Assembly (NCBI GenBank): GCA_020343675.1
Contig: CP070806.1
Location: 2,400,096-2,440,271, forward strand
Origin: Phycisphaerales bacterium
GTDB lineage: Bacteria; Planctomycetota; Phycisphaerae; Sedimentisphaerales; Anaerobacaceae
Reading direction: 5' to 3'
DNA length: 40,176 bases
The notes under the pieces are model-generated. The model was not told where the DNA came from, made no database searches, and saw only the letters and a list, made by a program, of their open reading frames with translations. Shown piece by piece: positions 10,816 through 35,118 of the stretch (positions are counted from its first letter, which is position 1; each line of letters begins with the position of its first letter). The position numbers were made by a program, and so were the translations under genes.

Positions 10816-11783
10816 CAGCCAAAACAGCGTCATCGGGCCTGGGGGCCACTGCCGGCAGGACCGGCGGGATGATCGATCCGGTCTCGCTGATGAGGATCAA
10901 GTCCATGGAGCTGCGCGCCAAAGTCATTGTGGAGGGCTTCTGGAAGGGAATTCACCGAAGCCCCTATCACGGTTTCTCGGTGGAGTTCACCGAGTACCGC
11001 CAGTATACGCTGGGTGACGACCCACGGTACATTGATTGGCGCGTCTATGCGCGCAGTGATCGATATTACATCAAGAAGTTCGAGGACGAAACGAATCTGC
11101 GTTGCCACCTGCTGATCGATCACAGCCGGTCGATGAACTACAGCTCGGGAGACTATGCGAAGTCACAGTATGCCGGTACGCTGGCCGCAACGCTCGCCTA
11201 TTTTCTTTTTACGCAGGGCGACGCCGTTGGCCTGGCGACCTTCGACGACCGAATCAGACAGTACATGCCGCCCCGCAACCGGCCGGGGTATCTGCGCCGC
11301 CTGATGCTGGCATTGGAAGCTGTCCCCGAGGGCCGCACCACTGACTTGGGCGCACCACTACAGCAAATTGCCCAGATGCTGCCCAAACGCGGCCTGATCG
11401 TTCTGATTTCCGACCTGCTCACGTCAATTGACAGGCTCGAACAGGATTTGGGATATTTGTGTGCCGGAGGACACGATGTCGTGCTCTTCCATGTCCTGGA
11501 CCCGGCTGAATTGAGCTTTGATTTTGACTCGCCTGCACTATTCCTGGACCTGGAGACCGGGCGCAACATGTACGTCGACCCGGCGGACGCCCAGACGTCG
11601 TACAAAGGGATGCTGGAGAAACATTTGACCAAGGCGGAGTCCACCTGCCGGAATCTCGGCATCGACTACCATTTATTCGGTACGGACCGCGCCTTTGATT
11701 TGGCCCTGCTTGATTTCCTCCAGGACCGGCTGCATCGCAGAAAGCTCATCAGGCATCGTCAAAAGGTCAGGAGAACATTATGA
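10812..11783 (+). CDS. DUF58 (vWA-like) protein, MoxR partner
   Basis: 323 residues. The DUF58 signature is clear: EYRQYTLGDDPRYIDWRVYA at about 61-80, then RSDRYYIKKFEDE. A vWA-like domain with MIDAS motif DHSRS (103-107) follows, so a bound divalent metal is likely. DUF58 proteins are almost always encoded next to moxR and are thought to be the adaptor or effector of the ATPase. There is no membrane segment, so it should sit in the cytoplasm with MoxR. The ATGA overlap with both neighbours suggests translational coupling. Confidence 0.92.
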   Translation: MTAKTASSGLGATAGRTGGMIDPVSLMRIKSMELRAKVIVEGFWKGIHRSPYHGFSVEFTEYRQYTLGDDPRYIDWRVYARSDRYYIKKFEDETNLRCHLLIDHSRSMNYSSGDYAKSQYAGTLAATLAYFLFTQGDAVGLATFDDRIRQYMPPRNRPGYLRRLMLALEAVPEGRTTDLGAPLQQIAQMLPKRGLIVLISDLLTSIDRLEQDLGYLCAGGHDVVLFHVLDPAELSFDFDSPALFLDLETGRNMYVDPADAQTSYKGMLEKHLTKAESTCRNLGIDYHLFGTDRAFDLALLDFLQDRLHRRKLIRHRQKVRRTL

Positions 11784-13927: not shown

Positions 13928-16900
13928 TTGAGCAGGCTCTTCGCAAACGACTTCAACCCATAGTCAAACGCCGAAGGCGTCTGTACCTGGCATTCAGGCT
14001 GTCGGCTTGCTGGCTCGGTGCGGCCCTGACGGGTATCGGCCTTCTTGCCATTGATTGGCTCTGGGGATGGAAATCATCGTTTGCCAACTCGGCGTTGTGT
14101 GTCACAACCGTGCTGGCGACGGCTGTTGTGTTGTACCGGTCTTTTCGCATCGGCCCGGACTATAAGGCGGTCGCCCGGGACATTGAGCGGCGGCATCCCG
14201 ACCTGCGAGCCTTGCTGCTGGCCGCGGTGGAACAGGAGCCGCAAGAGCCGGACGGGCAATTTGGCTATCTTCAGGAACGGGTCATCGGCGAAGCTGTCAG
14301 ACATGCGGTCCGGCACGATTGGCTCAGAAGCGTCTCGTCCGCCAAACTCGTATCGGCACAGCTTGGCGGACTCATCGTGCTGCTGTTTCTTGCCGCGGCG
14401 TTTTCTCATCTGTTGCCGTCCATTCCTGCCTTCTTCGGAACCAATGGGTTTGTGCTTCCCAGGCGCGACTACCACGTCGCCGTTAGTCCCGGAGATACCC
14501 GTGTGGAGTCCGGGACGCCGGTGGTCATACTCGCGCGATTCAACGAGCTCGTGCCTTCCGAAGTCAGTCTCCAGTTCGGCCCCGTCGACGAGCAGGTGCA
14601 GGAAATCGTGCTGACGAGAAACCTGGAGGATCCCGTATTCGGCGGCATCATTCAGCAGGTCAATCAGGATTTGCTCTATCATATCGAATACGAGGGCAGG
14701 CGCACACGGGACTTTCGAATCAGTGTGTATGAGAACCCCGTGTTGATCAGAGCCGATGCCAGGATCACTTATCCTCCATTTGCGAAACTGCCCGAGAAGG
14801 TCATTAAGGACACGCGTCAAATCAACACCGTGGAAGGCTCGCGCGTTGCCCTGACCTTCATTCTCAACAAGGCGGTAACGACAGCCCAGCTTCTTCCCAA
14901 GGAAGGGTCCGCTCTGGAGCTGACGGTTGATACCGAGCATCCGAATGTCTATACCGCTTCACTGATCACCAATCAGAGTCAACGCTACGAACTGCAACTG
15001 ACCGATGCGCAGGGGCTGACCAACGAGGTGCCGCAGCGTTTTTCGATCGATGTCCACAAGAACCTTCCGCCCGAACTGAAGCCCGTTTTCCCAAATCGCG
15101 ACGTTGTGGCCTCGGCTTTGGAGGAGTTGAGTCTGGAGGCCAAAGTCTCGGATGATTACGGCGTAACCGGCTATGGGCTCAGCTATGCTCTTGCCGGCAC
15201 CGAGAGCAAGGAGATTGCATTGGGGCCCGTCGTTGAGTCAAGTGAGAACCAGCAAATGCAATACGTGCTCGCTCTGGAAGAGCTGGACGCCAAACCCGAT
15301 CAGTTGCTTACGTACTATTTCTGGGCCGATGACGTGGGTCCAGACGGGCAAACCCGCCGGACCTCCGGTGACATGTACTTCACAGAGATACGCCCCTTCG
15401 AGGAGGTCTTCCGGGAAGGTCAGTCATCTCAGGACCAGCGCAATCAGCAGAATCAGGACGGCCAGCAGCAAGGCGGTCAACAGGATGAACAGCTCGCTCG
15501 TCTGCAAAAGCAAATCATCAGTGCTACGTGGAATATCAAGCGGCAGGTCGATCAGTCCGGCAGCATGGATGACCGCAAGGAGGACCTTGACGTGGTCCGT
15601 CAGTCGCAGGCCGACGTGCTGCAGAAAGCCCAATCGGCCTTGACGGAGGCCGGAGAGCCGTCGCAGATCAGCGCTCTTCAAAGTGCGGCCGAGCACATGA
15701 AAACATCGCTGGATCATTTGTCCGGGGCCGCGGAATCGGCGTCGTCGACGGAACTGACTTCCGCACTGGCCTCAGAACAGTCGGCGTACCAGGAATTGCT
15801 CAAATTGAAGCAGAATGAGAGACAGGTCGGTCGCGGCCGCAGTTCGAGTGGAAACAGCACGGCCCGCTCGGCCCGCTCCGAACAACAACTGCAACAACTG
15901 GAGCTGCGACAACAGGAGAATCGATACGAGACAGAACGATTGGCCCAGTCCCAGCAGCAGGCGAGCCAGCGTGAAGACCTTCAGGTTCTCAACCGCTTGC
16001 GCGAGTTGGCGCGGCGGCAGAACGAAATGAGCGAGAAGCTCAAAGAGGCGGAGGCGGCCCTTCGGCAGGCGCGGACCGAGCAGGAAAGAGAGCAAATACG
16101 ACGAGAGCTCAAACGTCTTCGCCAGGAACAAATCGAGGCCCTTCGAGACGTTGATGAGCTGCAGCAGCGAATGGAGAGCGATCAGAACCGCCGGCGCATG
16201 GCCGAGGCAAGAGAGCAGCTCGGACAAACGCGATCGAGAATTCGTCAGTCCGCCGAGGAGCTCGAGACGCAAATGGTCTCAAGAGCCATCACGTCCACCA
16301 CGCGCGCACAGCGTGAACTCGAGCAAATGCGCGACGAGTTCCGGCGCAATACCTCCAGTCAGTTTACCGACCAGATGCGCGACATGCGCGAAAAGGCCCG
16401 GCAGCTTGATCAGCGTCAGAAGGAAATCGCCGAGGAAATCGAGCAACGAATCAATGCGAAACAGAAGACACTCACGGATTCCGGCGTAAGCCGCGAACTC
16501 GCGGGTCAGATGGATCAGCAAAGAGAGAATGTCAACGAACTGGTTGGCGAGATGAGGGACGTGAGTGAGCAGGCGGAATCATCAGAGCCGCTGCTTTCCC
16601 GAAAGCTTTACGATACACTCCGCAAGACAAGCACCGGAAATGTTGACAGAGCATTAGAGGTCACCAGCCAACTGCTCAGACGCAATTTTCTGCCGCAGGC
16701 TCGTGAGATTGAGCGCCAGGCCGGAAAAGGTGTCGAGCAGCTCAAGGAGGGTATCGAAGATGCCGCTAAAAGCGTGCTTGGCGACGAGGCTGAATCCCTG
16801 CGTCTGGCCCGGCAACAGATCGATGAGCTCATCAGGCAGGTCGATCAGGAGGTTGCGCGCGCCGGTCGGGCCGGGCCAGCCGATAGTGATCCCAATGCTT

Positions 16901-17478
16901 CCCAGAGCCGGGCGGGGGGCGAACAGCAGCGGGCCGATTCGCAGGCCCGAACCGGTCAGGGGCGAGGCGGCGATCCCAACAGTCCTCGAGAGGCAGATGC
17001 AAATCGTCAGCTTTCCGACGATCGGGCAAGAGCAGGCAGAGAGCAAACGGGGACACGAAGGGCAGGCGGGCCAGCTGATCCGACGGGCTGGGGCGGCAAT
17101 CGAGCAACGGCCGGACAGTGGGAGCAATTTGATCCGAACGGCCCGCTCACGGGAAGAAATTTTCCACAATGGTCCGATCGACTGCGCGATGTCGAGGAGA
17201 TGCTCAACGAGCCGGACTTCCGCAACGAAGTTGCAGGAGTCCGAGACCGCGCCCGCGCGATGCGGGCGGAGTTCACCCGTCATGGGAAGGAGCCCCAGTG
17301 GGACCTGGTCCGGCAGCAGATCACCAGGCCGCTGACGGAATTGCGAAACCGCATCAGCGAGGAACTGGCCCAGCTTCAGTCGGATGAGGCAATCGTCCCC
17401 ATTGACCGCGACCCGGTGCCCGGGCGGTTCGCCGAGCTGGTGCGGCGGTACTATGAGAACCTGGGAGGGGATGAGTGA
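13924..17478 (+). CDS. Large DUF4175-like membrane protein with long coiled coil
   Basis: 1184 residues. Three N-terminal membrane helices (about 25-47, 57-74 and 138-162) precede a beta-rich periplasmic part (about 180-500). From about 500 to 1010 the protein is very rich in Gln, Glu and Arg with heptad-like spacing, predicting a long alpha-helical coiled coil (for example LRQARTEQEREQIRRELKRL). The last 170 residues are low-complexity, rich in Gly, Arg, Asp and Gln, then helical. The architecture fits the DUF4175 family, often encoded with MoxR, DUF58 and BatA. It could be a scaffold spanning the periplasm. It overlaps both neighbours. The ATG has AAGGGG about 6 bases before it. Biochemical function is unknown. 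Confidence 0.8.
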   Translation: MIEQALRKRLQPIVKRRRRLYLAFRLSACWLGAALTGIGLLAIDWLWGWKSSFANSALCVTTVLATAVVLYRSFRIGPDYKAVARDIERRHPDLRALLLAAVEQEPQEPDGQFGYLQERVIGEAVRHAVRHDWLRSVSSAKLVSAQLGGLIVLLFLAAAFSHLLPSIPAFFGTNGFVLPRRDYHVAVSPGDTRVESGTPVVILARFNELVPSEVSLQFGPVDEQVQEIVLTRNLEDPVFGGIIQQVNQDLLYHIEYEGRRTRDFRISVYENPVLIRADARITYPPFAKLPEKVIKDTRQINTVEGSRVALTFILNKAVTTAQLLPKEGSALELTVDTEHPNVYTASLITNQSQRYELQLTDAQGLTNEVPQRFSIDVHKNLPPELKPVFPNRDVVASALEELSLEAKVSDDYGVTGYGLSYALAGTESKEIALGPVVESSENQQMQYVLALEELDAKPDQLLTYYFWADDVGPDGQTRRTSGDMYFTEIRPFEEVFREGQSSQDQRNQQNQDGQQQGGQQDEQLARLQKQIISATWNIKRQVDQSGSMDDRKEDLDVVRQSQADVLQKAQSALTEAGEPSQISALQSAAEHMKTSLDHLSGAAESASSTELTSALASEQSAYQELLKLKQNERQVGRGRSSSGNSTARSARSEQQLQQLELRQQENRYETERLAQSQQQASQREDLQVLNRLRELARRQNEMSEKLKEAEAALRQARTEQEREQIRRELKRLRQEQIEALRDVDELQQRMESDQNRRRMAEAREQLGQTRSRIRQSAEELETQMVSRAITSTTRAQRELEQMRDEFRRNTSSQFTDQMRDMREKARQLDQRQKEIAEEIEQRINAKQKTLTDSGVSRELAGQMDQQRENVNELVGEMRDVSEQAESSEPLLSRKLYDTLRKTSTGNVDRALEVTSQLLRRNFLPQAREIERQAGKGVEQLKEGIEDAAKSVLGDEAESLRLARQQIDELIRQVDQEVARAGRAGPADSDPNASQSRAGGEQQRADSQARTGQGRGGDPNSPREADANRQLSDDRARAGREQTGTRRAGGPADPTGWGGNRATAGQWEQFDPNGPLTGRNFPQWSDRLRDVEEMLNEPDFRNEVAGVRDRARAMRAEFTRHGKEPQWDLVRQQITRPLTELRNRISEELAQLQSDEAIVPIDRDPVPGRFAELVRRYYENLGGDE

Positions 17479-19847
17479 TGTTGCTCGGCTCAATTTCTAT
17501 CCCTGCAACCCGCTGGGTCTGGTTGGCTGCGCTGGCGTTGGTCGTTGCCTCGGCGCTCTTGTTCTGGTCGTACCGGCGCTCTGCGGAACGCGGCGCCGCG
17601 CAGAAGATTGCCTTCTTTCTCAGACTTCTGGGCACATTAATACTGGCGTTATCTCTGATAGAGCCAGTGTGGACCGGACAACAGGCTAAATCGGGCGCCA
17701 ATCTCTTTCTGGTCGTGGCTGACAACAGCAGCGGGATGAATGTCATTGACCGAGAGGCAGGCCAAAGCCGGGGGCAGATTCTCAAAACCGTCTTGCAGGC
17801 TGAACGGGCAGAATGGCTCAGCACTCTCGCTGCGAATTTTCAGGTTCGCCAATATATGTTTGACTCGCAACTGCGACGGTCAACAGACTTCTCGGAGTTG
17901 GTCTTTGACGGCAAGGCTTCGGCGGTCGGGGAGACTTTGCGAACAATAGCTCAACGCTACCGCGGCAGGCCGCTGGCCGGTGTGCTGCTGATGACGGACG
18001 GAAACGCCACGGACACGGGCGAGCAATTCTACGATCTGTCGGAGGTGCCTCAGGTGTATCCGGTCGTTATCGGCGCGGCCCAGCCGCCCAAGGACATCTC
18101 CCTGACAAATGTCGCTGTCAGCCAGACCTCTTTCGAGGACGCCCCGATAACAATCCAAGTCGAGGTCGAGGCTTCGGGATACGCCGGCAAGACCATTGCG
18201 ATTGCTCTTACAAAGCACTCCGGCCAACTGGTTGAACGCCAGAGACATAACATTTCCCGTCACGTTGAGAAGCAGTCCTTTCGTTTCCGCCTGCGCCCGG
18301 ACAGGACGGGTGTCCTGTTCTATCACCTTAACGTCGCCGAAGAAAACCCGCCGGAGGAGTCGTCCGATCAACAACAAGCACCGCCTGAAGCGACGATGGC
18401 GAACAACAGGCACACGTTCGTTGTGGACCGCGGCCGGGGACCTTACCGGGTTCTGTACGTCACCGGGCGGCCGAACTGGGAATACAAGTTCCTCAGGCGA
18501 GCCGTCAGCGAAGACGAACAGGTGCAGCTTGTCGGGCTGCTCCGTGTCGCAAGACGCGAGCCAAAATACGATTGGCGGGGCCGCAGAGGCGAGCAGACCA
18601 ATCCGCTTTACCGGGGATACGACAATAAAGACGACGAGCAGGCAGAGCAGTACGATCAGCCGGTCTTCGTGCGTCTGGGCACGCGTGATGAGGCAGAACT
18701 CCGCGATGGATTTCCGAAAACAGCCGAAGAATTGTTTGGCTATCACGCGGTCATACTCGATGACGTCGAAGCAGGGTTTTTCTCGCACGATCAAATGGAA
18801 CTGCTGAGACGGTTTGTGGCCGAACGAGGGGGCGGATTCCTCATGCTCGGTGGAAACGAATCATTTCAGGAAGGGAACTTTCATCGCACGCCCATCGGCC
18901 GGATTCTTCCGGTTCATCTGGACCGAATGTCTCAGACACAGACGGTTTCTCAGGTCCATTGGGATCTGACTCGTGAGGGCTGGCTGCAACCGTGGGCCCG
19001 ACTGCGTGACAATGAACAGGACGAACAGAAACGACTCGCCGAGATGCCGGCGTTTCGCGTACTCAATCGGGTCGGTTCGACGAGAGCCGGAGCGGCGGTC
19101 GTCGCGACCGTCGGCGATGACCAGGGGCAGCGGTGGCCGGCTTTGACCATACAACGGTACGGCAACGGCCGCGCCGCCGCACTGGCGGTCGGCGACGTGT
19201 GGCGATGGGGCATGAGAGAGCCTCAGACACGCGAAGACATGGACAAATTCTGGAGGCAGATGCTGCGCTGGCTGGTCGCGGACGTGCCCAATCGGATATC
19301 GTTCTACGCCGCGCAGAAGCCCGACCAGGTCAACCAGGCGGTCGTCTTTCAGGTTCGCGTTCGCGACAAGGACTTCGAACCGATGGACAATGTATCGGTT
19401 GCCATAGAAGTCAGCGATCCGCAGGCCCAAAAAGTCCAGCTCACTGCCGAACCCGTGCTCGATGAAGCCGGACTCTTCGAGGCCACGTACGTCCCGCGCG
19501 GTAACGGCAGCTACTCCGCGCAAGCGGTGGTGAGCGATGCCGAGCAATTGCAGGTCGGTGACGCCAAGACCGGATGGGCTGTGGATCTTGAGTCACGCGA
19601 ATTTCGCTCAATCGGAACGAACCGGCCATTGCTCGAAAAGATTGCACGCCAAACTGGAGGCCGGATGATCGAGGTTCATGCACTGGATAGTTTTGCTCGC
19701 ACCCTGCCCCACCGCAAGGCGCCGATTACCGAGACGTCGATCACGCCGCTCTGGGATTTGAGGGGGATCTTGCCGGCGGTTTTCCTGTTTGTTCTGATGT
19801 GCTTTGTTGGGGAATGGGCCCTGCGCCGCTGGAAAGGGATGCCATGA
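17478..19847 (+). CDS. Membrane vWA/glutamine amidotransferase-like protein of the BatA cluster
   Basis: About 789 residues. Two N-terminal membrane helices (about 12-32 and 45-65) are followed by a vWA-like domain, Ig-like parts, a glutamine amidotransferase-like domain (LLRRFVAERGGGFLMLGGNE) and a C-terminal helix (ILPAVFLFVLMCFVGEWAL). The MIDAS position reads DNSSG where DxSxS is expected, so the third ligand is lost and metal binding is doubtful. Start: GTG 17475 overlaps the previous stop by 4 bases, and ATG 17478 overlaps it by 1; GGAGGGG at about 17463-17470 fits both, and I chose the ATG. It ends in an ATGA overlap with the last operon gene. It is a paralogue-like companion of the BatA protein three genes earlier, not a close copy. 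Confidence 0.82.
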   Translation: MLLGSISIPATRWVWLAALALVVASALLFWSYRRSAERGAAQKIAFFLRLLGTLILALSLIEPVWTGQQAKSGANLFLVVADNSSGMNVIDREAGQSRGQILKTVLQAERAEWLSTLAANFQVRQYMFDSQLRRSTDFSELVFDGKASAVGETLRTIAQRYRGRPLAGVLLMTDGNATDTGEQFYDLSEVPQVYPVVIGAAQPPKDISLTNVAVSQTSFEDAPITIQVEVEASGYAGKTIAIALTKHSGQLVERQRHNISRHVEKQSFRFRLRPDRTGVLFYHLNVAEENPPEESSDQQQAPPEATMANNRHTFVVDRGRGPYRVLYVTGRPNWEYKFLRRAVSEDEQVQLVGLLRVARREPKYDWRGRRGEQTNPLYRGYDNKDDEQAEQYDQPVFVRLGTRDEAELRDGFPKTAEELFGYHAVILDDVEAGFFSHDQMELLRRFVAERGGGFLMLGGNESFQEGNFHRTPIGRILPVHLDRMSQTQTVSQVHWDLTREGWLQPWARLRDNEQDEQKRLAEMPAFRVLNRVGSTRAGAAVVATVGDDQGQRWPALTIQRYGNGRAAALAVGDVWRWGMREPQTREDMDKFWRQMLRWLVADVPNRISFYAAQKPDQVNQAVVFQVRVRDKDFEPMDNVSVAIEVSDPQAQKVQLTAEPVLDEAGLFEATYVPRGNGSYSAQAVVSDAEQLQVGDAKTGWAVDLESREFRSIGTNRPLLEKIARQTGGRMIEVHALDSFARTLPHRKAPITETSITPLWDLRGILPAVFLFVLMCFVGEWALRRWKGMP

Positions 19848-24090: not shown

Positions 24091-27066
24091 CTAAGGGCCC
24101 GGAGTCAGGTTTCGGTCGGGGTAGGGATTGCGCTGTTCTTTGTGGTAGTAAAGGAAACGCCACAAGGTCTCGACTCCGTGACAATCCGCGCAGAGCCCCT
24201 GGTTCGTTTCGGGCCTCAGAAAGCGGGAACGTCTGTCAGGCCGGTGTTGCGCGCTTCGGCCGTCTTGCTCCGGGCTCGGCGGCGCGATGTGCGGCTCATG
24301 GCAGGTCAGACAGGAGATGGCTCCGGTATCGGAGGGTTCCCCGGCCTGATCGAGAGTCGGCATGTACCCGGGCTGCCCCGGAGGCGTGCGGTTCACCAGA
24401 GCCACATCCGGGTGGTCCAGATGTTTTGGAATATGATTCGATGCACATTCGCCCTGACGGTGGCAGCACGTGCATAAACCCCGGCCGTGCGAGCCTTCAA
24501 ACCTCGATCCTTGCGCCCACACGCCGCCGACATCGGAAGCAAAGTGCGCCAGATGGCAAGAACTGCAGGGGCCGGACTCGGCGGCGGTTTCGCCTCGCAC
24601 GTTGCGTGCGTCGGGCGCCGAGGTTCTCAGGTCATGAAGCGTTCCGATGAGTTCGGCGGCTTCCACGTGACAGGCAAGGCACACGCCCGAATCCGTTCTC
24701 GCCGATGCAAGCAGCTTCGGGCCCTGTTCGGCCTGGTGAATATCGTGACATGTCACGCACAAGATGTGTCGTTCGGTGCTCAAGGGCATGTTCTCCGGCA
24801 GCTCTTCAATCTCGGCCCCCAGGGATTTACCCATGTGCGGCGTCTCCATCGCCTGGCCCGGCGCGGCTGGCCGGTGGCAGCTCTCACAGCTCTGTGCCTG
24901 GCTAATCTCACTCCCCAATGCAGTCCAAATGCCGCTTTCGCCCGGCGGACCATGAGGCGGGTGGCAGTCGATGCAGGAACCCCGGGAGACAAAGCCAAGC
25001 TCTTTCGCCCAGTCGGCTACTCCGGGATCATGCACTGAATTCCGTATCCCCAGCTTGTCTTGGTGGCAGGCGCCGCAAAGAGCGGCAATGGGAGCTACAA
25101 GCAGCTTCGCCCCCTGCGGCTTCTGGTGGATGTCGTGACACGTAGTGCACACTATCCGTCCGGCCGAATCCACGATCATGTTCGCGGGCAAGCTCTCTAT
25201 GTCCGGCCCAAGCGGCTTTCCCATGTGGGCTGTCTGCATGGCTTTTCCAGGCGCTCCGGCCCGGTGACATGTTTCGCATGACCAGGGTGCGGTACCGTCG
25301 CTGCTGATGCGCCCCCAGATACCACCTTGCTCATTTGGATCGTGGACCGGATGACAGTCGAGACAGGAGCCTTTCGAGACAAAGCCAAGCTCCCGGGCCC
25401 ACTCTGCGGCCCCGAGGTCGTGCACGGAATTCGCTGCGCCGAGCTTGTCTCCGTGGCAGTCGCCGCAGAGGCCGGTGATTTGGCCCTCGGTGGCTACCGG
25501 TGACCGTGCCCACAGATGAGGGCCTTGCGCATTGTGGGTCGTGTGGCACACGCGACATGGGCCTGTGGAAGGATGCACGAGAAGCTTATCGCGAGCGGCC
25601 GGCCCGAACCGTTCCGGGTCGTGCGGCTGGCCAGGAAGGTCGGTAAGCGTATCGTGACAGAGACGGCATAGTCGCGAGCCTCTGTACCGCAGAAATGAAC
25701 GTGGTTCCTGGACCTCAGAATCAATCCGGCCCGGAGGCGTTGTTATCCGAGGATGGTGTACATCCGGCAGCTCACTCGGAGCCGCTATTCCATCGGTCTT
25801 CTCGGCCTCGATTTCTGCTGCGAGCGGACTGTGCGGTTCGTGACAGGTCAGGCAGCCGATACTCCCTGTGGTTTTATCCAGAGGCAACGTAGCAGGCATA
25901 TCCGTCGGAACGGGGGTTCCCACAGTGTGTGCGTCCACATAAAGCCGATTGGGCGACCCGGGTCCGCCTGACTGGTGACACTCCATGCATCCGGAACTGT
26001 GGGGCCGATGTGTATCCGGGACATCCCGCGCCCAACCATGAATGCGGTGACATGCGCCACAAGGGCCGGATTCCGAAGCGGTCTGCCCGCTGGCGTTCAC
26101 GGTCTGCGGAGAGCTGAATCGAAGATCGTGGGGGGAATCGAGAACCGTCTTCTCGGTCGGATGACAATCGAGACAGAGAGAGCTGTCCTGGTTGTTTCGA
26201 ATCAGCAACGGCTTGGCGCCTGAAGCGTCGTGCAGGCGGTGACAGGAAAGACAGGAAAGCTCCCCGCCAGCGCCAAACGTGGCCTTCTCCTGCAATAAAG
26301 TGGCCGGCGGTTCAAAACCGGGGTAGGCTTGTCCTATGTGGTGTATCGGCGCACCGGCCGGAGGGGCGGTCTCGGGACTCTTGTCAGTGTGGCAGGCGAT
26401 GCAAAGCTTTGAGGGCGGCAGGACCAGCATCCAGGGGTTTCGTGCTCCGTGTGGCTCGTGGCAGGTCTGGCAGATAATCGTGTGGCCCTGGGCGGAAGTC
26501 TTGCCGCCGGCCTCCAGGATTTCCTGCGGTATCGGATAATCGACGTTCCCCAGAGGGTGCTGGAAATCATTCTTCGCGGCGTGCTCGAGGTGACAGGCGA
26601 GACAAAGCGAGGAGTCAACATTCGGTTGGCGCAGAAAGATCACGGTCCGCAGATCGGAACTCTCCGGCACGGCGTGTGCCGTGTGACATGTTGCGCACGT
26701 CATCCGACCCTGGGCGTCCAGAGGAAATGTCTCTGTCGGAATACGTACGGCAGCAGAGGGCACGGAATCCGTCGTATGGTGGCGCGTGGACCAGACCTTG
26801 AAACGTGAATCGGTTACCGAACCGTCGTGGCAGGAAAGGCACATATCGCCGCTGCCCGCCTGGCGTTCGAGAACTTCCTCCATGCGATCCTCCGGCGTCT
26901 CGGTTCTCTCGAACGCCCGGACCCATCGGATGTGGCAAATGGCGCATTCTTTGCTTGAATTAGGCATGACTTCCTGGCCGAGAATCGACTGAACCGCCCC
27001 AGATATCAAAAGAAAGATCGCCATGCCGGCATGTGAGGGCGTGATAAGAAACTTCGCTCTCAGCAT
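24091..27066 (-). CDS. Exported 26-haem c-type cytochrome
   Basis: 991 residues with a signal peptide (AGMAIFLLISGAVQSILGQ) and 26 CXXCH haem-binding motifs by my count, about one per 38 residues, with many extra His for the second axial ligand. Residues around motifs 14-17 and 18-21 form a tandem duplication of about 130 residues (57% identical by hand count). Motif pairs 8-9 and 22-23 are also alike (HDLR...ESGPC..CH). There is no membrane anchor after the signal peptide, so it is periplasmic or cell-surface, and likely a long-range electron carrier. GGAG lies 9 bases before the ATG. It follows the NHL gene by 6 bases and is the last gene of the cytochrome operon. I find no motif marking a known reductase. 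The number of haems actually attached must be tested. Confidence 0.9.
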   Translation of the reverse strand: MLRAKFLITPSHAGMAIFLLISGAVQSILGQEVMPNSSKECAICHIRWVRAFERTETPEDRMEEVLERQAGSGDMCLSCHDGSVTDSRFKVWSTRHHTTDSVPSAAVRIPTETFPLDAQGRMTCATCHTAHAVPESSDLRTVIFLRQPNVDSSLCLACHLEHAAKNDFQHPLGNVDYPIPQEILEAGGKTSAQGHTIICQTCHEPHGARNPWMLVLPPSKLCIACHTDKSPETAPPAGAPIHHIGQAYPGFEPPATLLQEKATFGAGGELSCLSCHRLHDASGAKPLLIRNNQDSSLCLDCHPTEKTVLDSPHDLRFSSPQTVNASGQTASESGPCGACHRIHGWARDVPDTHRPHSSGCMECHQSGGPGSPNRLYVDAHTVGTPVPTDMPATLPLDKTTGSIGCLTCHEPHSPLAAEIEAEKTDGIAAPSELPDVHHPRITTPPGRIDSEVQEPRSFLRYRGSRLCRLCHDTLTDLPGQPHDPERFGPAARDKLLVHPSTGPCRVCHTTHNAQGPHLWARSPVATEGQITGLCGDCHGDKLGAANSVHDLGAAEWARELGFVSKGSCLDCHPVHDPNEQGGIWGRISSDGTAPWSCETCHRAGAPGKAMQTAHMGKPLGPDIESLPANMIVDSAGRIVCTTCHDIHQKPQGAKLLVAPIAALCGACHQDKLGIRNSVHDPGVADWAKELGFVSRGSCIDCHPPHGPPGESGIWTALGSEISQAQSCESCHRPAAPGQAMETPHMGKSLGAEIEELPENMPLSTERHILCVTCHDIHQAEQGPKLLASARTDSGVCLACHVEAAELIGTLHDLRTSAPDARNVRGETAAESGPCSSCHLAHFASDVGGVWAQGSRFEGSHGRGLCTCCHRQGECASNHIPKHLDHPDVALVNRTPPGQPGYMPTLDQAGEPSDTGAISCLTCHEPHIAPPSPEQDGRSAQHRPDRRSRFLRPETNQGLCADCHGVETLWRFLYYHKEQRNPYPDRNLTPGP
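24682..25077 (-). repeat. Internal duplication in the 26-haem cytochrome, copy 2
   Basis: This encodes 132 residues carrying haem motifs 18-21, starting at CGACHQDKLG. It aligns along its whole length with copy 1, including NSVHD, W.KELGFVSRGSC, SCESCHR, HMGK.LG and TCHDIHQ. It is directly adjacent to copy 1, so it arose by unequal crossover or slippage, followed by divergence. Confidence 0.8.
25078..25467 (-). repeat. Internal duplication in the 26-haem cytochrome, copy 1
   Basis: This encodes 130 residues carrying haem motifs 14-17, starting at CGDCHGDKLG. Hand alignment with copy 2 gives about 74 identical positions of 130, highest around the haem motifs and lowest in the GIW... loop. Confidence 0.8.
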
Positions 27067-27072
27067 CGCACT

Positions 27073-28113
27073 TTACTCCAGATCCACCCGGCAGAGGCGG
27101 TGCGCTTTGAGTTCGACAACGTAGAGGCGTTTGCGCTCGGCATCAGTCGCCAGCCCCGTAGGCGTAGTGAATTTAATCGCAGTTCCCGCCGCATCCGTCA
27201 GCACGCCGAAGAAACTGCTGCTCATATCGAAGACCTGAACAGTGCCAAGATAGCTGTCGCTCACAAAGACCAGACCGTCACAGGTCGCCACACCCTTGGG
27301 GCGGAATAACTGCCCGGGTTTGACCCCCCAGCCTCCGATGAAGTTGACAAACTTGCCGCTTGCGTTGAGAACCTGCACGCGCGTGTTGATCGGCTCAACC
27401 ACGAACAGGTAACCTTGTGGGGAGATATCCATCAGAAACGGAAAACGGAACTGCCGCTGACCTTGTCCTGGGCCACCCCAGACCGTTTCAAAGCTTGCGT
27501 CGGTCAGGTTATAGAGAGCCACGTGGTGGTTATCGTTATCGGCGATATACAACCGCCGGCGGCTTGAATCCACGACTACATCACTCGGGTCGGGCGGCAC
27601 GTCCGACTTTGTACGCGGCAAAGGAACCGCCTGCAACAGTGTTCCATCGGTCGCAAAGACCTGAAAACGGTGATTTCCCGAATCAGCAACGTAGATTTGC
27701 CCATTGGGCCCCGCGCCGATTCCAAGCGGAAAGAGAAGCTGGCCGGGTTCGCTGCCGCGACTGCCGAACTGAAAGCGGAATTGCCCCTCGGCGTCATAGA
27801 CGACGACGCGATGGTGAACTCCATCCAGTACATAGACATGACCTTCACGCCCGACCGCGACGTCGGTCGGCATATCGAAAGGCTCCCCTTCCGGCCCAAC
27901 CAGCACGGTCCGATTGGCCGCCCTGATGCCCTCGACGTTCTCTTCTGGAGCGGGTCCGCTCCGGGCGCCGAAGACTGTGCAGGCCGCTGCCAAGACCAGC
28001 AATCCGGCACCGTGCCGGACTGCGCCGATCCAGCATATTCTGTCAGAAGGTGCCATGGCTCCTGCTGCCGGCTTCCCTGCGTTGGCGTTAGAAGAATGCA
28101 ACTTCAATCTCAC
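27073..28113 (-). CDS. Exported NHL-repeat beta-propeller in the cytochrome operon
   Basis: 346 residues. A hydrophobic N-terminal segment ends in LAAAC, which could be a weak lipobox or an ordinary signal peptide. About six NHL repeats follow, for example FPLGIGAGPNGQIYVADSGN, DVVVDSSRRRLYIADNDN and GLATDAERKRLYVVELKAHR, forming a propeller of the SMP-30/NHL type. It has no haem motif. NHL proteins recur beside multihaem cytochromes in metal-reducing and conduit gene clusters, so a structural or docking role is inferred. GTG start overlaps the trihaem gene stop by 4 bases (GTGA), with AGGAG about 7 bases upstream. Confidence 0.82.
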   Translation of the reverse strand: MRLKLHSSNANAGKPAAGAMAPSDRICWIGAVRHGAGLLVLAAACTVFGARSGPAPEENVEGIRAANRTVLVGPEGEPFDMPTDVAVGREGHVYVLDGVHHRVVVYDAEGQFRFQFGSRGSEPGQLLFPLGIGAGPNGQIYVADSGNHRFQVFATDGTLLQAVPLPRTKSDVPPDPSDVVVDSSRRRLYIADNDNHHVALYNLTDASFETVWGGPGQGQRQFRFPFLMDISPQGYLFVVEPINTRVQVLNASGKFVNFIGGWGVKPGQLFRPKGVATCDGLVFVSDSYLGTVQVFDMSSSFFGVLTDAAGTAIKFTTPTGLATDAERKRLYVVELKAHRLCRVDLE

Positions 28114-28979
28114 TGGGTCTCCTCTTCGGTACCCTGCTCCTGTTGTTCCTCGGGATTGAGTAAGTTCGGCATGTGAAACGTCTCGTAACGCCGCACAAGG
28201 TCAACGACCTCCGCACTAACGAGAAAAGCCGCTCGTTCGGGGGGATACCCGAGGGCCGTATAGGGCAAGAACTGGCTTTCTGCATCATGACAACCGCTGC
28301 ACCGCACCGGGTTCTCCACACATTTCCTGTGAATGAACTTATTGCCTATCACTTTCTGGCTGTCGTTGATGCTGTTCATGCGCTGGCGGAACTCCCTGGC
28401 GAACTCCTGCTCCTCTTCAAGGCTCAGAGGCTGCGGATTCTCCGCAGGACCCGTCAGTGGAACGATCTTTGCACCATATTCGCCCCAGACGCCCTGGACC
28501 ATTTCAGGGTTTGCACCGAGAGCCCCGGTGGTCATGTCCACCCAGCCAAAACGGTCGGGCACGACGCCCTGGCTCTCCTGCACATGACAGACCTGGCACG
28601 AGATGAAGAGGCCGTGCATGTTGAGAAAAGCGCGTTCCTTCAAACTCCGGGAATGAGGAATGGGCCCGTGACACTCGATGCAGAAGTTCCACTCGTCGGA
28701 TTGGTACCAGCGGCCGATATGGTGGAAATGCCCGGGCAGTTTCGGCTCCAGGAACTCCCATTCTCCCAGATAGCGCACCACTTTCTTGTCTGTCAGCGCC
28801 AGGACGCTGTCGAACACCTTCGCATCGGCGGACTCCAGCCCCTTGCCCGCGAGAGGATCGCCCAGCGTTCCACAGAGGTACGCGGTCAGCCATGCCCCTG
28901 CCGCGATCAGAAGGATGCTCCAGATCCCAACATAGAACATGAGGAAACATCGTTTCGAAAGGTCCGGTTTATGACTCAT
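28110..28979 (-). CDS. Membrane-anchored trihaem c-type cytochrome
   Basis: 289 residues. One N-terminal membrane helix (FLMFYVGIWSILLIAAGAWLTAYL) anchors a periplasmic domain with three haem motifs: CIECH, CQVCH and CSGCH. It is not NapC/NirT-like, since those have four haems and different spacing, and I cannot name its family. The C-terminus is acidic and Glu/Gln-rich. It overlaps the cytochrome b/c fusion gene by ATGA and the NHL gene by GTGA, so the products are likely made in fixed proportion. It probably passes electrons between the b/c protein and the soluble carriers. Confidence 0.82.
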   Translation of the reverse strand: MSHKPDLSKRCFLMFYVGIWSILLIAAGAWLTAYLCGTLGDPLAGKGLESADAKVFDSVLALTDKKVVRYLGEWEFLEPKLPGHFHHIGRWYQSDEWNFCIECHGPIPHSRSLKERAFLNMHGLFISCQVCHVQESQGVVPDRFGWVDMTTGALGANPEMVQGVWGEYGAKIVPLTGPAENPQPLSLEEEQEFAREFRQRMNSINDSQKVIGNKFIHRKCVENPVRCSGCHDAESQFLPYTALGYPPERAAFLVSAEVVDLVRRYETFHMPNLLNPEEQQEQGTEEETQ

Positions 28980-30820
28980 GACTTCACCTCCGCTACCGCA
29001 CCGAGACTCTGAACCTCGCCTCCGTGTTCTTCGGCGAGTGCCCGAGGCGAGATTTTGCCGTTGATGACCATGCTGGAAAGGGGCGATACGCCGGGTCTGC
29101 CAATGACCCCTGGTATGTGCACAAGCATGATATGCGCTACAGCCAGGAGAGACTCATATGTGTGGGCCAGATAGGCTACATTGAGGGCCCAGCCCGGCAG
29201 TATGTGACTCGATATGCTCTCGGCCCAAAGCAGGATGCCGGTGACGGTTATCAGGGGAATGCCCCAGAATAGCCCGAGGTACTCAAGTTTCTCCTTCCAG
29301 CAGAAATGACCATAATTCGGTCGCTCGGGGCTCAGGAAAAAGACGTACTTTGCCATCCCCACCAGATCCTTCAGATCGCACGGCTTCGGTATCATCGGCA
29401 GGGCCAGGATGGCACTGATCCAGGCTTTGATTCCTCGCTTTCGGTCTCGCTTCAGCGCGCGCCAGACGTTCACCAGAATCAGGAGGATATGCGCGGCAAA
29501 GCCAATCATCAGCGCAACGCCGGCAATACGGTGCACGATCGGAGCCCCGTGGATTCCGCCGAACAGGTCATAAATCACCGGTGCCCAGGGCGCTTCCGGA
29601 AACTTCATTGGAAATCCCGTCAAACAGAGGACTACAAAAACGACGACCAGAAAAGCATGTTGCAGCCGCAGTGAACCGGTGAAACGCAGAATGCCGTTCT
29701 CACGGGCCGCCTTCTTTTCCGCGATCTTCGTAAGGCGTTCGATTTCCTCTTCGGCTTGGTGACTCGGCAAGAGCTCTCGGACGAGGCCGAGGATATTGAG
29801 CGTCAGGACGGGCAGTAGAATGCCGAGCGTTGCGATCACGAAGAACGCGCCGACTGCGAATTCGAGGGCGTGTGTTCGCGAATTCCGATTGGCGTGCACA
29901 TCAAAAGAGGCCAGGGCCGGGCCGGCGGACTTGTGGCAATCTTGGGTGTTGCACGTGGCAGGGCGATTTTCCGGATGAATGGAGGAGCGTGGATCCGTCG
30001 CCGCACGCATTTCGTGCACGCTGTCCTGGCTGGCGTGACAATCCAGACAATCCGGCGCAAGGGGCGAGCCGAACAGGACCGCCTTGCCATGGTATGTCTC
30101 CAGGTAGCTTGATACAACATCGGGCAGATCGTGTCTCCTTGCAAACGCCGGGTCAGCGTGGCAACTCGCACACATGCCGACTACCTCCCGAGGATCGCGA
30201 GCCTTGTGGAGGCGAGTCGTGACATGAGAATAAAAATAACGCACGAAATTCTCGTCGGAGTGACACTGGGTGCAGCGGCTGATGGCACGCTCGGAGACAC
30301 CCGCGCGAAGCTGTTTGAAAATGGATACGGGCCGGAAAAGCGGGATGTCGTGGCAGTCTTTGCAGCGGGGGTAGTCCTCGGGATTGCCGGGTTCCGTGCC
30401 GTTCTCGGCCGTCAGGGCGTGCACGCTGTCTTCGAGACCCTTACGTACCTTGGCGTGCGTGAAGATGATTTCCCGCGTCGGCTCCTCGATGTGACAGCTC
30501 CGCAGGCAATCGACCGGTTCGGCGTTATCGTGGGGTATCTTCTCGATGTCGGCGTGGCAGCCCCTGCAATTCACACGGGCGTGCGGGCCGCGACTGAACA
30601 GTGACTCGTCCACGTAAAAGAGACGATAGTCACCCTCCTTGTCCACTCGGGCCAGACCGCGGAAGCGGTGACACATCAGACAGTTCTCCGCATCCACGGC
30701 ATACAACACCTGCGGCAGAAGGACGGTCAGTGCCAGCACCAGAAGGGCTGGTACAAGACGCGGACTTAGTGTCCTTCGTCCTCGAGTCACCGCGCGGTTA
30801 GCAATGGTAAAGTACTTCAT
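28976..30820 (-). CDS. Multihaem cytochrome c fused to a cytochrome b-type membrane domain (CbcL-like architecture)
   Basis: About 614 residues. After a signal-anchor (LVPALLVLALTVLLPQVLYA), a periplasmic domain has six CXXCH motifs plus two variants: CLRSCH (CX3CH, 30491-30508) and CNTQDCH (CX4CH, 29933-29953). A membrane domain of about five helices then carries His residues at positions fitting a dihaem cytochrome b of the FdnI/HydC type. This resembles Geobacter CbcL, an inner-membrane quinol oxidase feeding electron export; that is an analogy of architecture, not a homology search. I prefer ATG 30820, because GAGG is 6 bases upstream; GTG 30844 and ATG 30832 are also in frame. It follows the octahaem gene closely. 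A quinone-linked role is the best inference. Confidence 0.84.
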   Translation of the reverse strand: MKYFTIANRAVTRGRRTLSPRLVPALLVLALTVLLPQVLYAVDAENCLMCHRFRGLARVDKEGDYRLFYVDESLFSRGPHARVNCRGCHADIEKIPHDNAEPVDCLRSCHIEEPTREIIFTHAKVRKGLEDSVHALTAENGTEPGNPEDYPRCKDCHDIPLFRPVSIFKQLRAGVSERAISRCTQCHSDENFVRYFYSHVTTRLHKARDPREVVGMCASCHADPAFARRHDLPDVVSSYLETYHGKAVLFGSPLAPDCLDCHASQDSVHEMRAATDPRSSIHPENRPATCNTQDCHKSAGPALASFDVHANRNSRTHALEFAVGAFFVIATLGILLPVLTLNILGLVRELLPSHQAEEEIERLTKIAEKKAARENGILRFTGSLRLQHAFLVVVFVVLCLTGFPMKFPEAPWAPVIYDLFGGIHGAPIVHRIAGVALMIGFAAHILLILVNVWRALKRDRKRGIKAWISAILALPMIPKPCDLKDLVGMAKYVFFLSPERPNYGHFCWKEKLEYLGLFWGIPLITVTGILLWAESISSHILPGWALNVAYLAHTYESLLAVAHIMLVHIPGVIGRPGVSPLSSMVINGKISPRALAEEHGGEVQSLGAVAEVKS

Positions 30821-30828
30821 GAAATACC

Positions 30829-31815
30829 TCATTTTTGATGACACGCTTTACAGAGTTGACCTTGGATGGCACGAAGTCGATGATTGTGAGCTTGTTTCGG
30901 CTCCGATCCTATCGATCGCGGATTCCAATTTGGCAGTAGTCCTCTCTCGTGCGGATTGTGACAGCTATAGCAGGTGATGCGCCCGGCCTCGTCCAGGGGG
31001 ATCGAGCGAGGAGCCCGCTCGGCGGCTCGCACGTACTCCAGAAGCTGCTTCAAGGGCAGGTTCATTCGAGGTTGTATCTCGTGGGCAGACATATACCACG
31101 TCATCTCCGCCGGAGGGGTCGCGCCCATGTGCGGGCCGTCGTTCGGGTGGCCTCTTGCGACCGGATGGCAGTTGTTGCATATCCCGTGCGGTTTAGCGCG
31201 AAGGGCGTGCGAGGCATCCGCTTCAGGACCGGTGTCCACATCCGGGACGCCGGTGTGACACCAGATGCACGCATCGGCCTTCGGTCTGCCGGCTCTGATC
31301 TGGTCGTGCGCGTTGAAAGGCCGGCTGTTTTCCCTCGCATGGCATCGGAAACAGAACTCCAACGCGTGGGACACATGGGCCCCGCGCAGGAAATTCCGCT
31401 GAAATCCGCCGGCAGGCCGGCTTGTCCTGCACTGCCGGGCAACATCATGACAGGTTGAACACGTCACTACTCCCTTATCAAGCGGAAATTCGCGAGGGAT
31501 CCTGTCCGCCATCACCTCGCTCGGCGCCAGATCCACAGGATGGGTCTCGCGAGCAGCATGCTGTCCATCGTGGCAAGACCGGCACAGTTGGGAGACATCC
31601 CCGTCAAAGAGTAAATGGCCTCGTCGGCCGGCGACGGAGGCATGGCAGGAAGAGCATGTCGCCGGGTGTCCGTGTGGATTCTCCACCGGTTCGGCCTTCT
31701 TCGCAGCTTCCTGTCCGCTTGAGATCGGTCCGAGGAGCAATGCCGCGACCAGCGTACGGATTTCCCAACAGCTACCGCGTCTGAGACGACTTGTGGGCAA
31801 GTTCTTTCCTTCCAT
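30829..31815 (-). CDS. Exported octahaem c-type cytochrome
   Basis: 328 residues with eight CXXCH motifs (CSSCH, CRSCH, CSTCH, CFRCH, CIWCH, CNNCH, CYSCH, CKACH) spread to the very C-terminus. A hydrophobic segment near 20-33 (TLVAALLLGPISSGQ) is a probable signal peptide. There is no Lys- or Tyr-type catalytic haem motif, so it is not recognisable as a nitrite, hydroxylamine or tetrathionate reductase; electron carriage is inferred. Start is ATG 31815; a TTG five codons on is possible, since AAGGAAAG precedes it. It is the first gene of the cytochrome operon and overlaps the end of a decayed coding segment. Confidence 0.85.
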   Translation of the reverse strand: MEGKNLPTSRLRRGSCWEIRTLVAALLLGPISSGQEAAKKAEPVENPHGHPATCSSCHASVAGRRGHLLFDGDVSQLCRSCHDGQHAARETHPVDLAPSEVMADRIPREFPLDKGVVTCSTCHDVARQCRTSRPAGGFQRNFLRGAHVSHALEFCFRCHARENSRPFNAHDQIRAGRPKADACIWCHTGVPDVDTGPEADASHALRAKPHGICNNCHPVARGHPNDGPHMGATPPAEMTWYMSAHEIQPRMNLPLKQLLEYVRAAERAPRSIPLDEAGRITCYSCHNPHERGLLPNWNPRSIGSEPKQAHNHRLRAIQGQLCKACHQK

Positions 31816-32640: not shown

Positions 32641-34182
32641 TCAGAGACCATGCCCCAGACCCGGATCGGTCTGAGCGCCGGTGTCTTCGTCAAGACGAAT
32701 CCTCCCCGCTTTCGTATCTTCTCCGTGCCCCGGCTGGACAGCCGTGTGCGCTATGGCCTTCTGCCAGCGCTGCTCTACCGTCGGCATATAAGGCGCCAGC
32801 AAGGCAACCCCCGCCCATGCTATCAGGCAGGTTACCGCCCCGACAACGGCGCCGACCTTCAGCCACTCAAAGAAACGGATACTGGTCCGATAGCGTTTTT
32901 CCAGCATGCCCAGCGCGACAATGTTGGCCGTCGAGCCAATCATGGTAATGTTGCCCCCCAGGCATGTCCCTTGCACAAGGGCCCAGACCAGCGGCGTCTG
33001 TTCAAGCTTGTCCACCACCGGGAGAAATACGGCCGCAAAAACAATGTTGTCCACGAAGGCCGAGCCAATCGCGGAGACCCCGATGATCACCGGCGTCAGT
33101 AGCGAAGGCTGGTCGCCAAATACGTGCTGAAAGTAATCCGAAATTGTCTCCGTCACGCGCGTCTCTTCCAGCGTCCCGGCCACGGCGAAGAGCATCATGA
33201 AAAACAAGAGCGTCCACCATTCGACGTCGGCCTCGATGTAATGCCGGGACCGCTCATGTCGCCACATCATCAGAAACCCGGCGATTACAAGAGGAGCGAC
33301 GATCAGAACCGTATTCGGCGCCAGACCCAGTCGCGCCTCCAGATGGTGGTGGGAAGCGATAAACAGGATCATGCCGGCCAGAATCGCCAGTCCGCGCCGA
33401 TACGGCACCTGCACGAGCGGACCCAATCCCAATCCCAGCTGACGCCGGGCCTCCAGGCGTTCGGACAGCACAGCAATGTCCTTGCGGAACCACCACATCA
33501 GAATACCCATCGTGATTGCGAGCGTTACAACCATGATGGGGAACGACCACGCCAGGAAATCGATGAATCGAAGTGGAGGTGTAGAGTTCTGTCCGATCAG
33601 GATCCCCACCGGATTGCCCAGCATGGTCCCGCTCGAACCCACGTTCGTTCCCATCACAGCGATAATCAAAAAGGGAACGGGTCGTACCTTCAGTGTGTCA
33701 CAGACCTGAAAGATCAGGGTAGCGACAAAGACAATCGATGTCACTTCGTCCACGGCACAGGCCATGAATGCCCCGAGGACAACAGTAATCGCCACAAACC
33801 TTGACCCGGTCATGCCCGGCACGCCGATAACGCTCTGGATGATCCATGTGAACAGACCCAGCTCCTTGAGGACGCCCACCGTCACCATCATCCCAACCAG
33901 AAACAGGATCACGTCCAGCTTGCACTCGCGAAGGAAAGTAGGCAAACTCAGCACATTGCTTCCCATCAGGGCCCCGATGCCAACAAACGCTATCGCCAGG
34001 CGAAACTTCCAGAATAGAAGAGTGGCCATAATAATGACCATGAAGATCGAACAGGAGATGACTTGTTGTCGATCCAGCCCGATGGAATGTGTGAGCAGTC
34101 CCACGAGAGTGGGGACGACCAACAACACACCTGCACGACCGCCTCTCTGAAGAGCACTCGTCTTGTCTTGTAGCTTCAGCAT
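32641..34182 (-). CDS. ArsB/NhaD/SLC13-type ion transporter permease
   Basis: 513 residues with about 11-12 hydrophobic helices and the duplicated layout of the ion transporter superfamily (ArsB, NhaD, CitM, SLC13). Matching re-entrant-type motifs occur in both halves: VDEVTSIVFVATLIF...NVGSSGTMLGNPVG and VDNIVFAAVFLPVV...LGGNITMIGSTANIV. Substrate could be sodium/proton, dicarboxylate, sulfate or arsenite, and the sequence does not settle it. The 3' end is long, charged and low in hydrophobicity. The ATG is 3 bases downstream of the EIIA-CBS stop, so the two are one operon. Identity as a superfamily permease is secure; the substrate is not. Confidence 0.86.
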   Translation of the reverse strand: MLKLQDKTSALQRGGRAGVLLVVPTLVGLLTHSIGLDRQQVISCSIFMVIIMATLLFWKFRLAIAFVGIGALMGSNVLSLPTFLRECKLDVILFLVGMMVTVGVLKELGLFTWIIQSVIGVPGMTGSRFVAITVVLGAFMACAVDEVTSIVFVATLIFQVCDTLKVRPVPFLIIAVMGTNVGSSGTMLGNPVGILIGQNSTPPLRFIDFLAWSFPIMVVTLAITMGILMWWFRKDIAVLSERLEARRQLGLGLGPLVQVPYRRGLAILAGMILFIASHHHLEARLGLAPNTVLIVAPLVIAGFLMMWRHERSRHYIEADVEWWTLLFFMMLFAVAGTLEETRVTETISDYFQHVFGDQPSLLTPVIIGVSAIGSAFVDNIVFAAVFLPVVDKLEQTPLVWALVQGTCLGGNITMIGSTANIVALGMLEKRYRTSIRFFEWLKVGAVVGAVTCLIAWAGVALLAPYMPTVEQRWQKAIAHTAVQPGHGEDTKAGRIRLDEDTGAQTDPGLGHGL

Positions 34183-34185: not shown

Positions 34186-35118
34186 CTACTCCCGCAGGAT
34201 CTTGCTTAGAAATGTTTCGAGCGAAACGACACCCACAAGCCTCTTTCCTTGTAGAACGTACGCCCAATTCGTCCGCTCGCGGGTAATCTGCTTGGCGACC
34301 TGAACTGCAGGCTCATCGACCTGGACGATGGCATATTCATCGGTCATAATTTCGGTGAGCCAGGTCTGGCTCTCTTTGCGAAGAATCTCAGCGAACGGCT
34401 CGAAATTCATGATAGGGGTCAGGTCGTCCATCCAGAGAATATACTCAGGCAGACACACACGAAGCAGCTCGTGCGTGGAGACCACGCCAACCAGGTCACC
34501 GTCTTTGTCCAGAACCGGCAGCTCGTTGAGGCGGTGCCGCACAAACAGATCAATGGCTCGCTCCAGCGTATCATGTTCCAGCAGCTTCACCTCGATGGGG
34601 TCCATGATGTCGCGGGCCCGCAGATGGTCGGGCAGGGCCACGCCTCCCTCGTCAAAGAAGTTCCAGACCTTCTCGCGCGTCGATAAGCTCGAAACGACCT
34701 CAGCGGTCGTTGGATCCTGGCAAATCTTGGCCACACAACTGACGCTCTGCAGGTATGCTCCCGGGGCGTGCTTCGGCGCCAACGTCAGGATAATGAGCTT
34801 AATAAGATTCTCCGGCTGCCCGCTGTCGTAAACGATTCCGTTTCGCGATGTCGCCACGGCTACCACAATCTCGTCCAGCGCCTCCAACTTTGCATGGGGC
34901 ATGGCAATCCCCGGCCCCACGATCGTGGGGACATCTGCCTCGCGAGCCAGCACGGCCTTGTAGGCCTCCTCCACATTTCCGATGCCGCGCTCGTACGCCA
35001 GCAGGCGCAGCATCTCAAGTAGAAGCGTGTCTCGGTCAGCCTGCTCGGTCTGGCACATAACTTGCGAGGGCCTCAAGAGCGAGGAGAACTTGATGTCAGC
35101 GTTATTTTGCAGAGCCAT
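34186..35118 (-). CDS. EIIA(Ntr/Fru)-like domain fused to a CBS pair
   Basis: 310 residues. An N-terminal PTS EIIA (fructose/nitrogen type) domain occupies about 10-160, with GPGIAMPHAKL placing the phospho-accepting His at 75. Two CBS domains follow (about 167-220 and 254-310), with LNELPVLDKDGDLVGVVS and GKRLVGVVSLE, a module that senses adenine nucleotides or ions in many transporters. No other PTS protein is encoded nearby. The gene sits 3 bases before a permease gene, so I infer it gates or regulates that transporter in response to phosphorylation and ligand binding. Same-operon pairing of EIIA/CBS proteins with ion transporter superfamily members recurs in bacteria. A promoter lies about 80-107 bases upstream. 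Confidence 0.86.
   Translation of the reverse strand: MALQNNADIKFSSLLRPSQVMCQTEQADRDTLLLEMLRLLAYERGIGNVEEAYKAVLAREADVPTIVGPGIAMPHAKLEALDEIVVAVATSRNGIVYDSGQPENLIKLIILTLAPKHAPGAYLQSVSCVAKICQDPTTAEVVSSLSTREKVWNFFDEGGVALPDHLRARDIMDPIEVKLLEHDTLERAIDLFVRHRLNELPVLDKDGDLVGVVSTHELLRVCLPEYILWMDDLTPIMNFEPFAEILRKESQTWLTEIMTDEYAIVQVDEPAVQVAKQITRERTNWAYVLQGKRLVGVVSLETFLSKILRE

Follow-up and report, generated by a model that had tools for sequence, protein, structure and literature searches.

Within the window, that is, the whole analyzed stretch of 40,176 nucleotides, five genes follow one another on the minus strand. The first, c8 (30829..31815), encodes an octahaem cytochrome of 328 residues that contains eight CXXCH motifs and displays a signal-like N-terminus. 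The second (28976..30844) encodes a 622-residue protein, hereafter the c/b fusion, which carries six CXXCH motifs, one CX3CH and one CX4CH, and matches Pfam PF01292 (E = 4.8e-14). The ensuing c3 gene (28110..28979) encodes a trihaem cytochrome of 289 residues, in which a hydropathy peak at residues 11-29 corresponds to an N-terminal membrane anchor, and is followed by the gene of an NHL β-propeller (27073..28113; 346 residues; Pfam PF01436, E = 1.4e-30) without any haem motif. Lastly, c26 (24091..27066) encodes 991 residues with 26 CXXCH motifs (Pfam PF09699, E = 6.2e-50). Consecutive genes are separated by -16, -4, -4, and +6 bases, and the original prediction of five cytochrome and NHL genes that overlap or lie close together on one strand proved exact in its coordinates. 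The five proteins hold 8, 8, 3, 0, and 26 haem motifs, respectively, or 45 in total (43 CXXCH and the two odd motifs of the c/b fusion). Shuffled versions of the proteins average 0.0-0.2 motifs each and never exceed 2, and just two more CXXCH codon strings turn up elsewhere in the six frames of the window, which together rule out a chance origin of the CXXCH motifs. Scans for promoters and terminators returned nothing convincing above chance. The nearest named relatives are Phycisphaerae MAGs, in agreement with the planctomycete host that had been proposed.

The c/b fusion comprises a c domain (residues ~50-320) and a b domain (residues ~330-610). In an alignment of 100 homologues, the CX3CH (C113-H118) and CX4CH (C298-H304) motifs of the c domain are conserved as expected of true haem sites: 98-100 sequences retain C113, C117, H118, C298, C303, and H304, along with every other Cys and His of all eight sites. 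Because both odd motifs are kept in at least 98 of these 100 relatives, the predicted count of 45 c-haem motifs stands. Eight additional His (88, 105, 130, 142, 207, 252, 277, and 317) are near-invariant (95-100 of 100 homologues) and are possible distal ligands, which would pair one to each haem and yield eight bis-His haems. In the b domain, H396, H438, H561, and H576 are invariant in 93 out of 93 homologues, and H452 is kept in 89 of them. A profile built from 18 b domains reports a hit with E. coli FdnI (1kqf_C, E = 1.7e-13, residues 3-212), in which these four invariant His align on H18, H57, H155, and H169, which we take to be the haem ligands of FdnI. In view of this match and of the aligned ligands, the fusion therefore consists of a dihaem b subunit of the quinone type with an eight-haem periplasmic domain attached to it. 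The quinone-linked inner-membrane architecture originally predicted for this protein is thereby supported, and the membrane His pairs for haem b, on which that prediction had been made to depend, are all present. Hydropathy and a low-confidence model suggest about five C-terminal transmembrane helices and an N-terminal signal or anchor. The AlphaFold2 model itself, computed from 9 sequences, has a mean pLDDT of 48, and a Foldseek search with it returns FdnI as its sole match, at an E-value of 0.02.

The haem motifs of c8 are kept in 41-43 of 43 homologues. We rejected a hydroxylamine oxidoreductase or Onr identity for c8, as no such Pfam or NCBIfam match was obtained. The c3 protein weakly resembles NapC/NrfH and the octahaem tetrathionate reductase (1sp3, profile E = 2.1e-7). 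Outside its three haem motifs, c3 possesses four near-invariant His (86, 109, 122, and 217), one of which is without an obvious haem partner, as well as an invariant W146. The NHL protein starts with a hydrophobic segment of the export type. The c26 protein is built of paired-CXXCH repeats behind a Sec-type signal and has neither a lipobox nor a second membrane segment; its match to nitrite-reductase-type proteins is weak, and its profile matches filament-type chains, namely OmcS and one other, and MtrA alike, in each case partially. The AlphaFold2 model of c26 (26 sequences) has a mean pLDDT of 58, and no match was returned by Foldseek with this low-confidence model; neither it nor the model of the c/b fusion is used here for structural conclusions. 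In Prado173, the NHL protein and c26 are encoded in one open frame (L016 7639-12036), which reflects either a genuine gene fusion or the loss of a stop codon; this single frame hints that the two proteins interact.

All five genes are found in identical order, with 52-74% identity, in CP070675 (Phycisphaerales bin71) and in BS750m-G58, which rules out an assembly chimera. The order is also retained in SG8_4 as far as the contig end, and in Prado173 apart from the single frame mentioned above. Scattering of the genes in relatives, which would have spoken against an operon, is thus not seen. A scan for the c-domain signature, with one genome per species, yielded 77 loci, in which 98 copies were assessed. 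Since retrieval used c-domain patterns only, the neighboring genes provide independent evidence. The b domain accompanies 92 of the 98 copies, c3 80, NHL 70, a protein with at least 12 haems 60, and an upstream c8-type gene 45. Both the b domain, separate or fused, and c3 follow in 77 of the 98 copies; in 50, these two are accompanied by an NHL gene and a cytochrome with at least 12 haems, contig ends truncating many of the other loci. According to the sequence records, the loci belong to Nitrospirota, Desulfobacterota, other "Deltaproteobacteria", Gammaproteobacteria, Planctomycetota, Acidobacteriota, Sumerlaeota, Schekmanbacteria, and others, so related gene sets extend across many phyla and nearly all come from uncultured organisms. 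The original prediction had placed the conduit in a planctomycete, calling this poorly described; the planctomycete assignment holds for the host, but the module is not specific to planctomycetes. The c and b parts are fused in every Planctomycetota copy seen, while elsewhere they are usually encoded by two genes; the order of the genes is nevertheless shared by Nitrospirota, Desulfobacterota, Gammaproteobacteria, and other groups. The planctomycete copies fall into two groups, that of the window having a support of 100 in a quick tree with some long branches. A search of 392 Planctomycetota genomes returned a clear full-length match to the c/b fusion in the host genome only; the matches in other genomes are mostly CbcL-like fusions or lone b subunits, so that the joint occurrence of module and porin across 392 genomes each carries no information. 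Ten Nitrospirota loci (L019, L020, L021, L037, L040, L052, L067, L068, L080, and L086) contain tandem sets. In these, several of which belong to Thermodesulfovibrionia, an eight-haem c protein, b, c3, NHL, and an 18-haem protein are followed by a diverged set with a protein of roughly 20 haems, and the paired sets represent an old tandem duplication.

Beyond the operon, the window encodes glycosidases and a sulfatase, and a packed block on the plus strand (8925-19847) contains DUF4159, MoxR-type AAA, DUF58, BatA/VWA, and GATase1-like genes, mostly with start-stop overlaps. A CitMHS/DASS-type ion transporter (32641..34182, minus strand) lies 825 bases upstream of c8, and 3 bases from it is a gene for a PTS EIIA and CBS regulatory protein (34186..35118, minus strand). 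In CP070675, an 88% identical transporter homologue is located after c26, and the EIIA/CBS homologue overlaps c26 by 4 bases. In both genomes, the pair thus adjoins the operon and shares its strand, and a link between the two is possible. If the transporter and its regulator belonged to the unit, electron flow could be coupled to ion movement in an ion-coupled respiration. We consider this very improbable, as the pair lies on one side of the operon in the window and on the other in CP070675, has no counterpart within about 10 kb of it in BS750m-G58 and Prado173, and is 85-88% identical between the window and CP070675, far above the 52-74% of the cytochromes.

The operon and the window encode no porin, as originally predicted, but this does not extend to the genome. 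A cluster on the minus strand at 4715005-4720981 of the host contig (G000:C1; L117 9006-14982), 2.28 Mb away from the operon, encodes a 5-haem cytochrome, a 677-residue β-barrel, an NHL protein, and a 12-haem cytochrome, and a cluster of this type is conserved in three further genomes (G025, G035, and G008). The porins tested did not return any Pfam family above the cut-off. Six porins exceed their shuffled versions in amphipathic-strand peaks (z of 2.5 to 4.8, versus -2.0 to 1.8 for other proteins), and the four members of the host-porin family end with FF, LF, or IF, an aromatic C-terminus. In a sample of 60 genomes including the host, a profile search detects the porin in 3 out of 3 module-bearing genomes versus 5 out of 57 others. 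Given eight porin genomes among 60, the hypergeometric chance of this overlap is near 0.002, a value that is merely suggestive because the sampled genomes are related. The original prediction had advised looking for a porin near the operon in relatives, and it is present there: homologous porins with NHL and multihaem neighbors lie directly upstream of the module in three UBA1845-type planctomycetes (L022, L023, and L081), and a homologous porin cluster occupies the same position in a Sumerlaeota MAG (L046). A partial porin cluster is found upstream of the module in L024. Owing to the 2.28 Mb between porin and operon in the host, the functional link between them rests on these relatives.

The module could alternatively be confined to the periplasm, with quinol electrons delivered to a soluble periplasmic reductase or stored as charge in c26. 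Consistent with this, the operon lacks a porin, most loci of Nitrospirota and Desulfobacterota show no homologue of the host porin within 10 kb, so that the module may work there without a porin of the host type, and c3 and c26 display the weak tetrathionate- and nitrite-reductase-type resemblances described above. In contrast, no catalytic reductase is recognized in or beside the operon, in line with the predicted absence of a terminal reductase from it, and the porin is present in all three module-bearing genomes sampled and, as part of a cluster, adjoins the module in four loci, which makes a purely periplasmic role rather unlikely. The original prediction also suggested that the 26-haem protein might be the terminal carrier; since the genome encodes a porin-cytochrome conduit, c26 need not have this function. 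Because it has a Sec-type signal but neither a second membrane segment nor a lipobox, c26 is likelier to act as a wire that connects the inner-membrane complex with the porin through the periplasm.

The host genome possesses cytochrome c assembly proteins, formate dehydrogenase-type proteins, and one DmsA/YnfE-family reductase at 1.553 Mb. No match to COX1 (haem-copper oxidase), cytochrome bd, NrfA, or NrfD was obtained in its single 5.06-Mb contig, while control genomes were positive; since its completeness is listed as 82%, these absences are no proof. At 666-679 kb of the host contig (L115), a bc1-type cytochrome b is located beside a 923-residue, 21-haem protein with a FixO-like stretch, near which a 696-residue decahaem protein with an MtrC/MtrF domain is encoded. 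At 4466-4472 kb (L116 6369-12379), NapC-type 12-haem, 15-haem, and 4-haem cytochromes surround a 359-residue exported protein, and a gene similar to the latter in size and start sequence is also found next to the porin cluster of both G035 and G008. Given the bc1-type cytochrome b, the NapC-type 12-haem cytochrome, and the DmsA-family reductase, other electron donors and acceptors exist in this genome.

Taken together, the five genes probably specify a module that connects the quinone pool with extracellular electron transfer, leading from the inner membrane through the periplasm to a porin conduit encoded in trans. The b domain would oxidize menaquinol in the inner membrane via its two b haems and pass the electrons to the eight-haem c domain of the same polypeptide. 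The membrane-anchored c3 and c8 would relay them into the periplasm, where c26 may form a long wire and the NHL propeller may serve as a scaffold or docking protein. Electrons would finally reach the outer-membrane 5-haem/porin/NHL/12-haem conduit encoded at 4.715-4.721 Mb. The model is built on the observed gene content and order, the conservation of haem sites and His, the FdnI-type b domain, the porin cluster, and the linkage in relatives, from which we infer that quinol is the donor, that electrons flow outward along the carriers in this order, that the NHL protein acts as proposed, and that the acceptor is extracellular. Regarding direction, the FdnI-type b subunit of formate dehydrogenase works as a quinone reductase, so that a b domain of this type fits either direction. 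Of the original proposal of an electron-export or periplasmic conduit, the quinone-linked architecture is upheld, whereas export rather than uptake is plausible only. If the chain ran inward, electrons from an extracellular donor such as Fe(II), a conductive mineral, or a syntrophic partner would enter the quinone pool. Relatives of CbcL, MtrH, and MtoC are known from Fe(III) reducers as well as from Fe(II) oxidizers, the direction not being readable from sequence (PMC6295460), and several relatives of the module belong to chemolithotroph lineages, e.g., Thiodiazotropha and Sedimenticola. However, as searches of the host genome for haem-copper and bd oxidases, NrfA, and NrfD gave no match, few sinks are visible besides the DmsA-family reductase, and the glycosidases and sulfatase of the window suggest a heterotroph. 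Uptake is therefore unlikely.

It is in Geobacter and Shewanella that the pathways of extracellular electron transfer have been elucidated. Planctomycetes are common in anoxic sediments but, to our knowledge, little is known of this process in them. The module would help explain respiration in a genome without a detected oxygen reductase, NrfA, or NrfD-type complex. The c-domain signature, together with the companion porin cluster, could serve as a marker for such metabolism in uncultured lineages, and the spread of the module over Nitrospirota, Desulfobacterota, Gammaproteobacteria, and Planctomycetota makes the function testable via transcripts across habitats. We found no published account of this gene order or set as a unit in a literature search that drew mainly on open-access papers. 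A broader proposal, which we put forward tentatively and hold to be somewhat less than an even bet, is that c8, an eight-haem c protein with an FdnI-type b subunit, a trihaem anchor, an NHL protein, and an 18-31-haem wire constitute an undescribed, widespread inner-to-outer-membrane conduit spread over mostly uncultured phyla. The large cytochrome would span the periplasm, the NHL protein would dock the complex to interchangeable porin conduits, and planctomycetes would have fused the c and b parts.

Among known systems, the CbcL/MtrH/MtoC proteins of Geobacter, Rhodoferax, and Dechloromonas combine a multihaem c part with an FdnI/HydC-type b part and have been proposed to act as quinol oxidase or quinone reductase in extracellular electron transfer (PMC6295460). 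The c/b fusion likewise has an N-terminal multihaem c part and a C-terminal FdnI/HydC-type b part with the haem-b His. Six transmembrane helices are predicted for the CbcL/MtrH/MtoC family, compared with the roughly five C-terminal ones and the N-terminal signal or anchor suggested for the fusion. Unlike CbcL, which has nine CX2CH motifs, it carries eight c haems including the CX3CH and CX4CH sites, and unlike all three proteins, it sits in a fixed order with c8, c3, NHL, and c26. CbcL-like proteins are common in the phylum, and their matches mostly begin at about residue 200 of the fusion and span residues ~200-620 (392 genomes). As published (PMC11434368), the Geobacter Cbc5 complex (CbcEDCBA) comprises three c-type cytochromes, one b-type cytochrome, and a membrane protein, and its description mentions no NHL protein. 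Cbc5, including CbcBA, a predicted menaquinol:ferricytochrome c oxidoreductase, resembles the module in assembling several c-type and one b-type cytochromes, and its separate c and b genes are shared with the non-planctomycete relatives of the module, but its content as published differs from the c8, c/b fusion, c3, NHL, and c26 of the window.

On the outer-membrane side, the Uet pathway of Tenderia and Gallionella comprises NHL proteins, triheme cytochromes, and a β-barrel porin with multihaem cytochromes, typically with the 11-haem UetJ and a prolyl isomerase (PMC10734462). NHL, a triheme cytochrome, and a porin with multihaem cytochromes are shared with our system; in contrast, the operon has no gene for the 11-haem UetJ or the PPIase UetB, and a c/b quinone module is absent from the description of Uet. 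OetABI of syntrophic sulfate reducers associates a periplasmic cytochrome, a porin, and an extracellular cytochrome into an outer-membrane conduit, with no NHL protein mentioned (PMC10553843), whereas the operon represents the inner-membrane and periplasmic side. The porin with inner and outer multihaem cytochromes typical of Mtr, Pcc, Oet, and Uet is absent in the window but present at 4.715-4.721 Mb and beside the module in L022, L023, L081, and L046. In Desulfovibrio ferrophilus, DFE_0448-0451 and DFE_0461-0465 similarly place NHL proteins beside multihaem cytochromes, no c/b quinone module being described there, and mutants deleted of these clusters still reduce Fe(III) oxide (PMC9769857). 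NHL proteins adjoin extracellular-electron-transfer cytochromes in Gallionella Uet clusters, Geoalkalibacter, and D. ferrophilus (PMC10734462, PMC12016550, PMC9769857), and these precedents support the setting proposed here rather than a specific role of the NHL protein. The operon is therefore best read as a probable novel form of CbcL/CbcBA-type quinol-to-porin export, which differs from Cbc5 in gene content and from CbcL in haem motifs as these systems have been described.
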